A stretch of 64,000 nucleotides of DNA, taken from the NCBI GenBank assembly GCA_017431005.1, contig JAFRLY010000059.1, positions 1 through 64,000 of the forward strand. Reading direction: 5' to 3'. The position numbers and the translations under genes are program-made. The notes beneath the pieces were generated by a model. The model made no database searches, was not told where the DNA came from, and saw nothing but the letters and a program-made list of their open reading frames with translations. Below, piece by piece: positions 61,247 to 64,000 of the stretch (its first letter is position 1; each line of letters starts with the position of its first letter). This DNA comes from Clostridia bacterium (lineage in GTDB: Bacteria > Bacillota > Clostridia > Christensenellales > Aristaeellaceae).

Positions 61247-61275
61247 TTTACATTTCTTTTCTTTTATGATAAAAT
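61247..61275 (+). promoter_or_regulatory. Promoter of the proton-channel operon
   Basis: TTTACA (61247-61252), 17 bp, TAAAAT (61270-61275), 32 bases before the ATG at 61308. The local sequence is unusually AT-rich (about 61,230-61,290). Confidence 0.82.
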
Positions 61276-61307
61276 AATATCTATCCTGTTAATAGGAGGT
61301 TTGCTGT

Positions 61308-62582
61308 ATGCCTGATCTGTCCAAAGTGACCGGCATGCTTCCGGATCTTGCTGATTATCTGGTCTACGGTGCCATTGCTGTTGTCACCCTGATCGGTGTT
61401 TTTAAATGTCTCCTTCCGCTCTGGAACACCACCGGCGCCCTGCGCAGGGCAATTTCCAGGCTTCAGGCCGATGCGGGAAACACCTCCGGCAGCAAGCCCG
61501 TCTGGCAGGAAGCGCGCTTCGTCGGCAAGCGCCTTCGCGGATCCTGGCTGCGTTTTCTGCAGAATGCGGAGCAGCTGGACCGCCGCGGTCTGCCGACCAA
61601 CGTGGAGGATTATATCAATGATGACACCGTGACCCATGGTCCCGGCAATGCCACGCTGGCTGAGCTGATCCCGAATCTGCTGACTTCCCTGGGTATCCTT
61701 GGTACCTTTATGGGATTGTCCCGCGGCCTCTCTTCCCTGAATTTTGCCGATTCCACCCAGCTGGTTGAAGGCATTCCCGTTCTGCTGGAGGGGATGCGTT
61801 TCGCCTTCGGCACCTCAGTGGCAGGCATCAGCTGCAGCATTGTTTTTAACATGCTGAATCGCATTTCCCAGGGCTCCAGCTACCGGGCCATTGATGACTT
61901 TGTTTCGTCCTTTACACAGCTGGCCATGTCCCGCCCTCTGGACAATGACGTTCAGCTCATCTGTCAGAATCAGGACCGGAACTTCATGCTCCAGGGGATT
62001 AATGACACCCTGGTGGACCGGCTGGCTGAAAATGTGAAGCTTTCCATGACCCAGGCTCTGAACCCGGTTGCCGACAGCATGGATCGCTTCATTCTCGGAA
62101 CCACACGGAATCAGATTGACGGCGTAAACCGGATCGTCGGCCGCTTTCTGGATGAAATGGACCGGAGCCTTGGCAACCAGTTTTCAGCCCTGTCCGGCGC
62201 CATGGATTCCGTCACGCAGAATCAGATTGCCGCTGCCCGTCAGACCGGAGCCGCTCTTTCCGCCGCTGAAGGCATTGTCCGGAACGCCCAGTCCCTGCAG
62301 GATATGACGGGAGGGATACTGAATCAGTTTGACCAGTATCTGGATAAAATCAACGCTCATACAGTCCGGGATGAAGGCTTCGAAAAGCGGACGGCGGAGC
62401 TCATGAACCGTATTCAGCAGGAAAACAGGGAGATGGCTTCCCTGATCGCCTCCCTGAAAGAGGCAATGCAGCTTCTTCAGCAGGACGACGCCGCTCTTCC
62501 GAAGATTCAGGGATTGACAGCCTCCCTTAACGACAACGTCAAAATCATTGCCGATGCTCTTTCGGCCCTAAAGGAGTCCTGA
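61308..62582 (+). CDS. MotA/TolQ/ExbB-type proton channel, ZorA-like
   Basis: 424 residues. Three transmembrane helices are visible: about 15-37, 118-141 and 161-183. The second contains LLTSLGILGTFMGLSRGL, the signature turn of MotA/ExbB channels and notably of ZorA. A cytoplasmic tail of about 240 residues (190-424) is predicted to be helical, with heptad-like, Gln/Leu-rich sequence (TAELMNRIQQENREMASLIASLKEA). This short head plus long helical tail is the ZorA architecture, not that of flagellar MotA. GGAGG is seven bases before the ATG; the next gene starts two bases after the stop. Confidence 0.85.
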   Translation: MPDLSKVTGMLPDLADYLVYGAIAVVTLIGVFKCLLPLWNTTGALRRAISRLQADAGNTSGSKPVWQEARFVGKRLRGSWLRFLQNAEQLDRRGLPTNVEDYINDDTVTHGPGNATLAELIPNLLTSLGILGTFMGLSRGLSSLNFADSTQLVEGIPVLLEGMRFAFGTSVAGISCSIVFNMLNRISQGSSYRAIDDFVSSFTQLAMSRPLDNDVQLICQNQDRNFMLQGINDTLVDRLAENVKLSMTQALNPVADSMDRFILGTTRNQIDGVNRIVGRFLDEMDRSLGNQFSALSGAMDSVTQNQIAAARQTGAALSAAEGIVRNAQSLQDMTGGILNQFDQYLDKINAHTVRDEGFEKRTAELMNRIQQENREMASLIASLKEAMQLLQQDDAALPKIQGLTASLNDNVKIIADALSALKES

Positions 62583-62584
62583 CG

Positions 62585-63562
62585 ATGGCGCGGCAGCGTA
62601 TTCATAACCGAAGGGCGTCCCGCGGCTCCGCGGGAGGAGGCGCCAGCTGGATCAGCTACTCTGATATGATGGCTGCGCTTCTGCTGATCTTTGTGCTGAT
62701 TCTGAGCTACAGCCTGTATCAGTATTTTTCCATGCTCGAAACCAAAACCCGGGAGCTGGATCAGCAGACGGTTCAGCTGAATCTGGCTCAGGATGAGCTG
62801 GCGGAAAAGGAAAAAACACTGATTGTCATTCAGGCGGATCTGGATACGCTTCAGGATACCCTGACCGCCAAGGAAGAAGAGCTGAATGCAGCCAATCTGA
62901 TTCTGATCAGCAAGGAGGACGAGCTGGCGCAGCTGCAGGCTGCCCTGACGGTAAAGCAGGCTGATCTTGACGCCGCGACCCTCAAGCTCGAGGAGCAGCG
63001 TCTCGCCCTTACAAATCAGGCCCGGCGCATTGATGATCTGATCGGTATCCGGACCGTTATGATTCAGGATCTTTCCTCCTCCCTGGCCGCGGCGAACCTG
63101 AAAGCGGCTGTCGATCCCAACAACGGCGATATCATTCTGGACAGCACAGTCTTCTTCGATACTGCGAAATCTGCCATCAAGGAGGAAGGCAAGGCATTGC
63201 TGGACAGCTTTATTCCGGTTTACCTGGATGTTCTGCTGCGGGATGAATATAAGGATTATCTGGGTGAAATCATTATTGAAGGGCATACGGATTCCAGCGG
63301 CTCCTACAATACCAACCTGAAGCTGAGCCAGGACCGGGCGCTGCAGGTCGCCCTCTATTGTCTGGATATGCCTTCCCTGTCCGCCGCTCAGAAAGCCCGT
63401 CTGCAGCAGATCCTGACTGCCAAGGGCCGGAGCTACGCGGATCTTGTTTATGATGAAAACGGCAGGGAGAACGCGGAAGCCTCCCGCCGTGTGGAGTTCA
63501 AATTCAGCCTGAAGGATACGGAAATGATCGAGGAGATGGACCGGATCCTGAACGCCGAATAA
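62585..63562 (+). CDS. MotB/OmpA-type peptidoglycan-binding stator partner, ZorB-like
   Basis: 325 residues. A single N-terminal helix (about 24-45) bears the proton-carrying Asp27 in WISYSDMMAALLLIF. A coiled coil of about 100 residues follows (about 50-150, repeated LxxxxDxL-type units), then an OmpA-like domain (about 175-315: TVFFDTAKSAI, EGHTDSSGSYNTNLKLSQDRA, NAEASRRVEF) that binds peptidoglycan. The coiled-coil spacer is longer than in typical ZorB. It lies two bases after the channel gene with the ribosome binding site in its end; the pair should form a proton-driven stator unit. Confidence 0.85.
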   Translation: MARQRIHNRRASRGSAGGGASWISYSDMMAALLLIFVLILSYSLYQYFSMLETKTRELDQQTVQLNLAQDELAEKEKTLIVIQADLDTLQDTLTAKEEELNAANLILISKEDELAQLQAALTVKQADLDAATLKLEEQRLALTNQARRIDDLIGIRTVMIQDLSSSLAAANLKAAVDPNNGDIILDSTVFFDTAKSAIKEEGKALLDSFIPVYLDVLLRDEYKDYLGEIIIEGHTDSSGSYNTNLKLSQDRALQVALYCLDMPSLSAAQKARLQQILTAKGRSYADLVYDENGRENAEASRRVEFKFSLKDTEMIEEMDRILNAE

Positions 63563-63580
63563 AGGAAGTGTCTGATTGTC

Positions 63581-64000
63581 ATGAAAGCAGCGGCAATTCT
63601 TATGCTGGTCGTATGCCTGGCGGCTTTGTGCGGGGTCGGTTATCTCTACATGTCAGCCAGCATCACCGTATCTCCTGTGGAAACCATTGCCTCCGACGCG
63701 GTTTCGCAGTCTGAGTATTATCAGACGCTTCGGGAGCAGCTGGAAAGCGGCTCCTTTACCGGTACGCTGTTCTCGCAGGCCCGTCCTGACAATCCGGAAA
63801 AGGACGTGTTCTACACATACACGGTTCAGATATCCAACCGTTCCTTCCTTCCTGCTGAAGTTGTCGAACTGCAGATCATGCCGATCACCGGCGATATTCT
63901 TCAGATCGGCGATCCTTCGGAGCACACACTGGTCTCCGGCCATACGATCAGTCTTTCCGCCACCCTGCTGACTGAAAAGCAGCTTCATAACATCCGGGAG
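63581..64000 (+). CDS. Membrane-anchored protein, third gene of the proton-channel operon (cut by window edge)
   Basis: The frame is open from ATG 63581 to the window end (140 codons). Residues about 5-25 are one transmembrane helix or signal anchor (ILMLVVCLAALCGVGYLYMS); the rest appears extracytoplasmic and beta-rich, with ISNRSFLPAEVVELQIMPITG resembling an Ig-like/FixG-type beta sandwich. AAAGGAAG precedes it with longish spacing. Eighteen bases separate it from the OmpA gene, so it is in the same operon. No match to ZorC, ZorD or ZorE was recognised from this part. Function unknown. Confidence 0.7.
   Translation, partial: MKAAAILMLVVCLAALCGVGYLYMSASITVSPVETIASDAVSQSEYYQTLREQLESGSFTGTLFSQARPDNPEKDVFYTYTVQISNRSFLPAEVVELQIMPITGDILQIGDPSEHTLVSGHTISLSATLLTEKQLHNIRE

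Follow-up and report, generated by a model that had tools for sequence, protein, structure and literature searches.

A ZorAB-class motor operon with a new third protein, best read as a core envelope machine of one clostridial family

The ZorAB motors with solved structures stem from phage defence, and a relative in the core genome would show what the default role of such a motor is. The available text of PMC11890865 reports that mutations of H186, L199 and R203 in ZorB I disrupted both peptidoglycan binding and anti-phage activity, and it calls a differential distribution across strains typical of anti-phage systems. Here we describe a three-gene operon, A, B and X, at the end of a 64,000-nucleotide (nt) stretch of DNA from a Clostridia bacterium (Aristaeellaceae; contig JAFRLY010000059.1), referred to below as the window. 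An initial annotation of this DNA offered two readings, a Zorya relative with a new component or a different energy-coupled envelope motor, and the second is the one favoured by our analysis. A-B-X is best read as a ZorAB-class core envelope motor with a new third protein in one clostridial family. On balance, we lean towards A and B being an ion-driven rotary motor of 5:2 stoichiometry and ZorAB sequence type, which would be a vertically inherited core envelope machine with X as its accessory rather than a phage-defence cassette.

A ZorAB-type pair and its third gene

The three genes form a tight operon in one direction, with gaps of 2 nt between A and B and 18 nt between B and X among the open reading frames (ORFs) of the window (Table 1). 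The initial annotation had called X overlapping-spaced; the spacing is indeed close, and the overlap is absent here and present elsewhere, as described below. Contig C4, from a source genome that is 85% complete, begins with the window and extends 229 bases past it. The ORF of X crosses the window end and could be followed to its stop, while genes to the right of X are unreadable in the source genome because the contig ends at position 64229.

The Pfam family MotA_ExbB (PF01618) matched A at residues 114-193 with an expectation (E) value of 7.9e-5, exactly at the curated cut-off, and residues T126, S127, T133, T169 and S170 were invariant in 41 aligned sequences. The PADLOC ZorA model matched A at E 6.1e-21; the best ZorA score of A was 73 bits, compared with 1355 bits for Klebsiella ZorA1 with its own model. 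Over residues 190-424 the hydrophobicity of A had a period of 3.5, a signal equalled by 5 of 300 shuffles, and the profile alignment of A extended to the tails of ZorA in 8vvn and 8qyd. These results agree with the helical tail that had been annotated for A. The three transmembrane (TM) segments annotated with it are taken from homology to ZorA, since a plain hydropathy scan gave the window's A a single segment and reached three for 25 of 78 A sequences.

The proposed features of B, namely a TM segment with Asp27, a long spacer and an OmpA domain, were all borne out. Asp27 was invariant in 44 aligned sequences, and the TM segment that carries it aligned to the TM segment of ZorB chains. Residues 48-150 contain neither Pro nor Gly, and their strongest period was 2.35, near 7/3, with 7 of 300 shuffles equally strong. 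Pfam OmpA matched B at E 4.3e-11 and the PADLOC ZorB1 model at E 9.9e-69. Within the OmpA domain, H234, T235, D236, N244, L247 and R251 were invariant in the same 44 sequences; by spacing, H234, T235, L247 and R251 correspond to H186, T187, L199 and R203 of ZorB I.

Because the PADLOC library holds only defence proteins, alternatives to Zor were tested among the chains of the PDB, where other motors are present. ZorA chains were the only channel-type matches of the A profile among the best 60 of 291, and B matched ZorB best, at 84 bits, with 43-48 bits for chains of the MotB/MotS type, in line with the annotated ZorAB likeness. In a second comparison, the family profiles scored 55-100 bits with five references of ZorA type and 86-109 bits with four of ZorB type, a test that leans towards Zorya in that these nine were chosen by matching A or B and three of them are not annotated as Zor. 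Escherichia coli MotA, ExbB and ExbD gave no match in this comparison, MotB 13 bits and Pal 20 bits. We consider the PDB comparison the fairer of the two since its chains were not picked for matching A or B. A tree grouped the B rows of the family at 88/91, below the starred level and with long-branch warnings. Judged by sequence, A and B are closer to ZorA and ZorB than to MotAB, ExbBD or Pal.

The membrane-anchored third gene is real. X encodes 162 amino acids, and a single hydrophobic segment was found in 80 of 80 X sequences, with five invariant residues in the 71 that were aligned. X was rejected as a chance ORF on the grounds of its conservation across loci, its invariant residues and its presence in 175 of 200 family genomes. 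Searching Pfam with the 71 members at E up to 0.1 gave 28 weakly matching families, the best at E 1.8e-4 and several of them immunoglobulin (Ig)-like; no TonB or TolA family was among the 25 of these 28 that were listed. In the PDB, X had no match better than E 0.33. In the part of the literature covered, no clostridial ZorAB pair was recognised that has a third membrane partner.

Table 1. Features of the A-B-X operon, in positions of the contig
Feature	Position	Strand	Basis
A: ZorA-like MotA/ExbB-type channel subunit, 424 amino acids, tail of helical periodicity	61308..62582	+	ORF, Pfam, PADLOC, PDB
A channel core, residues 114-193	61647..61886	+	PF01618, invariant columns, alignment to ZorA chains
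A tail, residues 190-424, hydrophobicity period 3.5	61875..62579	+	periodicity; profile aligns into ZorA tails
B: ZorB-like subunit, 325 amino acids: TM segment with Asp27, linker, OmpA-type peptidoglycan-binding domain	62585..63562	+	
B Asp27 codon, presumed ion carrier	62663..62665	+	invariant; aligned to TM segment of ZorB chains
B residues 48-150, probable coiled-coil linker	62726..63034	+	no Pro/Gly
B OmpA domain, residues 190-299	63152..63481	+	Pfam, invariant H234, T235, D236, N244, L247, R251
X: third gene, N-terminal hydrophobic segment and ~135 residues, 162 amino acids	63581..64069 (window part 63581..64000)	+	

Operon conservation and distribution

Scanning species genomes with B gave 157 relatives; the best 80 of these, together with the window, make up the 81 loci counted here. 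The full set holds 112 loci, and the counts omit L083-L112, which comprise the operon's own place and own-genus genomes partly repeating L003-L082. A lay directly upstream of B in 77 of the 81 loci, and a profile placed A upstream of B in the remaining four, in which A has a longer frame (L028), is truncated where the contig begins (L069, L072) or is split by a stop (L075). In this last locus (L075:6229-7797), A is in two same-frame pieces with an intervening stop, directly before B. X followed B directly in 79 of the 81 loci, with a 4-nt overlap between B and X in 25 of them. It was missing at L068, where the contig ends, and at L008:11056-15122, in one species, two opposite-strand genes separate B from an X that is still an open reading frame. 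Directly after X, 21 of the 81 loci carried a gene of an M15-type dipeptidase cluster, 16 of them with a 17-nt overlap; one member of this cluster was typed as an M15 D-Ala-D-Ala dipeptidase, a peptidoglycan-type activity. Across 80 loci the distances of B and X correlated at 0.795, where the highest of 500 permutations reached 0.088; the corresponding value was 0.82 for A and B, and 0.70 over 28 loci for B and aspartate-semialdehyde dehydrogenase.

In an order sample of 396 genomes, X was present in 33 of the 34 own-family genomes and in 0 of the 362 others, and A was strongly present in 32 of those 34 genomes, while 8 of the 362 others had matches that did not exceed 35 bits. Among 398 genomes sampled across the phylum, X was matched in the source genome and in 3 of the 397 others, the three at 22-24 bits. 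X was found in 175 of 200 family genomes, and in 98 of the 103 with a completeness of 90% or more and a contamination of 5% or less. A at 65% identity or more was present in 32 of 37 same-genus genomes, and of the 31 genomes of the order sample that carry both genes, 26 have X within ~3 kb of A. The strain-differential distribution of Zorya was not seen in these counts for A (32/34) and X (175/200). A recently mobile origin of A-B-X was rejected, as no plasmid or phage record with X was found at E 0.01; the best plasmid matches shared 25-26% identity with A and 41% with B. On the whole, the distribution is that of a core gene set of one family and not of a travelling defence cassette.

A number of observations weigh against this reading. 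In five of the 31 genomes holding both genes X was on another contig than A, and among the 34 family genomes two had X without a match to A and one had A without X. Of 20 family genomes in which X was not found, many of them incomplete such that some X may be missed, 15 kept A and 5 lacked both. Genus g149 had A in 6 of 6 genomes and X in none, and three of these six are 95-97% complete; genes for an M50 peptidase and ScpA followed A-B in 2 of 3 g149 loci (L204, L206), with ScpB confirmed at L204, and the third locus (L205) was without this M50/ScpA arrangement. At five deep-branching loci A-B is followed not by X but by another membrane-anchored gene, Y, described below, and the X found in the genera of these loci is a true homologue (profile probability 99.8%). 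Two genomes from other families of the order (G045, G170) carry a B relative at 115-117 bits, outscoring the Zorya references, and A at 35 bits; the tree places these B relatives with MotB at 83/71, with a long-branch warning. Distance correlations of B with neighbour clusters c10 (0.19, 19 loci) and c13 (0.44, 17 loci) lay within the permutations, and c10 correlated weakly with the other marker too. Effectors may be encoded in trans: a scan for the ZorC domain gave 0 of 60 genomes, and no control was positive in it either. Finally, an identical ZorAB-like pair without X occurs on two IMG/VR contigs (L212:1860-3924, L213:1655-3719); the L212 pair is flanked by two serine recombinase genes, and no effector was recognised in the stretch of L212/L213 that was read. 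The family boundary holds for X and this A type, and not for all such motors.

These exceptions bear on the status of X. X is the usual partner of A-B and not an obligatory one, because A is kept in 15 of the 20 genomes lacking X and g149 has A without it; the annotated third partner thus stood as usual in the family and not as a strict requirement. It could be argued that X is merely a co-transcribed envelope gene of unrelated function and that the motor is A-B alone. The retention of A in genomes without X, many of them incomplete, would fit, as would the five genomes with X away from A-B, where at three loci X is divergent from a polA gene (Pfam-confirmed in one). We nevertheless consider this unlikely, given that X and this A type share the same family boundary, that X mostly lies within ~3 kb of A, and that B and X overlap by 4 nt in 25 loci.

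Neighbouring genes and the proposed motor

Two genes were noted upstream of A-B-X in the window: a Sir2 gene in the same orientation, and an opposite-strand gene whose cluster was typed as semialdehyde dehydrogenase in another locus. Across the 81 loci, neighbours of at least 140 amino acids within four genes of B formed 162 representatives, of which 105 were scanned; minus-strand proteins were scanned without their first codon, which should leave domain matches unaffected. The adjacent ZorA and ZorB homologues of a Zorya system were found, and an adjacent effector (ZorC with ZorD, ZorE, or ZorF with ZorG) was not found among these 105, a negative that covers all 10 families at E 1e-15 and the 25 of 44 listed at E 1e-5, while at the window's own locus the contig stops before any gene downstream of X. 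As a positive control, the library readily recognised a true ZorC. Defence models matched scattered single neighbours (mad3, mad8, IetA, DolB and others), and many neighbours of A-B-X were metabolic, repair or translation genes. The annotated reading as a Zorya relative with a new component is weakened by this lack of an effector and by the near-universal presence of A and X in the family.

The same observations bear on fixed Zorya-type immunity, in which A-B would sense phage entry through the wall, X would be a sensor on the outer face and the effectors would be encoded elsewhere in the chromosome. The characterised proteins most closely related to A and B belong to defence, and mobile A-B pairs exist, both on L212/L213 and as a paralogous pair near a Card1-like gene. 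An immune system of this kind is nonetheless improbable in our view, with A-B-X near-universal in one family, with many housekeeping neighbours and with the Zorya effector not found beside it.

The wider cell biology was also considered. Flagellin (PF00669) was detected in 0 of 60 family genomes and in 4 of 14 controls. Omp85 (PF01103) was detected in 0 of 30 family genomes and in 7 of 14 controls, although an outer membrane without Omp85 is possible. Presumably this bacterial family is the one represented by Aristaeella. Species of Aristaeella are described as non-motile in the available text of PMC12694931.

Taking A-B as an ion-driven motor with X as its accessory, we propose the following arrangement. 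By analogy with ZorAB, five A subunits would surround the TM helices of two B subunits, and the A tails would bundle into a cytoplasmic rod. Rotation of A against B would be driven by ions that pass B Asp27 and the Ser/Thr ring of A; the OmpA domain of B would hold it to the cell wall, so that A and its tail would turn inside the cell. TolA is a third partner with a single TM helix and a domain outside. TonB likewise has one membrane helix and an outside domain, according to the available text of PMC9389320. Because TonB and TolA share this plan, X is read as an outer-face accessory, whose single TM helix may be placed within the A ring or next to it, in the way TonB and TolA are placed next to ExbB and TolQ. 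Its presumably external domain might then regulate the docking of B to peptidoglycan or pass force to the wall, and the likely job of the motor would be cell-wall upkeep or growth.

Alternatively, A-B could be a sensor of wall tension, with B tethered to the wall, stretch opening the A-B ion path, the A tail signalling inside the cell and X acting as a gate. The long linker of B, the invariance of the B residues that match peptidoglycan-binding positions of ZorB and the dipeptidase neighbour are consistent with such a device. We regard it as very improbable, however: Pfam found no signalling domain on A, and complexes of this class are established as rotary motors, also according to the available text of PMC9389320.

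Returning to a rotary core machine, a broader proposal can be put forward tentatively, as a possibility we would not yet bet on: ZorAB-type motors may not be only immune, and here one may serve as a core cell-wall machine in non-flagellated, apparently single-membraned clostridia, X acting in it as a force transducer or gate in the manner of TonB and TolA. If true, wall-anchored motors would form a wider class with Zorya defence among its uses, a class that includes forms with an EAL domain of the cyclic di-GMP (c-di-GMP) type in exopolysaccharide clusters, and the work of a wall-anchored rotary motor could be studied cleanly in these bacteria, with neither a flagellum nor an outer membrane involved.

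Other relatives and comparison with known systems

Further relatives of A and B were seen in other settings. A MotA/ExbB channel with a C-terminal EAL domain (E 1e-38 to 1e-40) is encoded, as part of a distantly related pair, at L147:8684-10231, L148:7369-8979 (-) and L163:5542-7119 (-). The EAL domain has retained an EALIR motif but lacks a DDF-type motif and is therefore probably degenerate. The following gene encodes a protein with a ZorB-like hydrophobic start containing an Asp, then SpaA-type domains and no OmpA match, with a weak ZorB match in L147. In the three genomes these pairs sit beside polysaccharide genes in exopolysaccharide clusters; the neighbours in L147 are a protein with HD and sugar-transferase domains and ParA/Wzz-like, Wzy-like and flippase-like proteins.

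A paralogous A-B pair without an adjacent X was found at L146:7674-11260, L149:2351-5841 and L164:14305-17765 (-). Its B is 647-699 amino acids long, and that of L146 has two OmpA stretches and a long coiled-coil-like stretch. The Card1-like endonuclease gene lies upstream of the L146 pair, and nearby genes we take to be ArdC- and RadC-like. On a Prevotella plasmid (L167:5007-8243), a ZorA-like/OmpA pair followed by a 273-amino-acid protein without a Pfam match lies between FtsK-annotated genes and is another possible ZorAB-based system. Taken together, the EAL-type pairs, the paralogous pairs and the pair on the IMG/VR contigs suggest a broad class with several uses.

Y, the gene that follows A-B at the five deep-branching loci, encodes a membrane-anchored protein at G000:C3:20529-21056 (locus L177:6527-7057). 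It was found in 56 of 60 family genomes and in 77 of 200 order genomes, only 12 of the latter belonging to the own family. A dihydrouridine synthase cluster, typed in one member, was near Y in 10 of 19 loci compared, and 14 of 19 Y members had weak SnoaL-like matches (best E 8e-4). Profile comparison found X and Y unrelated (probability 0.7% and 5%). Y as a fourth motor subunit was rejected, and it is not counted as motor-specific because it occurs in families of the order without this A type, often near the dihydrouridine synthase cluster.

Among described systems, flagellar MotAB is of the same motor class as A-B and has an Asp in the TM segment of its B subunit. The initial annotation had held out placement with MotAB as the competing outcome; the lack of flagellin in 60 family genomes opposes it, and we rejected a flagellar stator on that basis. 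The A profile also misses E. coli MotA. TonB-ExbBD and TolA-TolQR resemble A-B-X in combining an ion-driven ring with a single-TM third partner that has an outside domain. They differ in serving an outer membrane, whereas no Omp85 was found in the 30 family genomes, and X is short. A Ton/Tol unit was rejected, as no Omp85 was found in those genomes and no sequence likeness was seen for X among the Pfam families listed or for A-B in the reference comparison. The available text of PMC12505986 describes "generic ion transporters" that, like A-B, are non-flagellar operon pairs with extra domains and unknown functions. Their B subunits are there without OmpA homology, unlike B with its clear OmpA domain, and the same text treats Zorya as more distant from them.

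The ZorA/ZorB pairs of Zorya types I and II (8qyd, 8vvn, 8vvi) are like A-B in their channel core, the Asp in the B TM segment, the long A tail and the OmpA-type domain. The present operon differs from them in that no ZorC/D, ZorE or ZorF/G was found beside A-B and A scores far below a true member, and it is further distinguished by a B linker of ~100 residues, by the addition of X and by its core distribution in one family.

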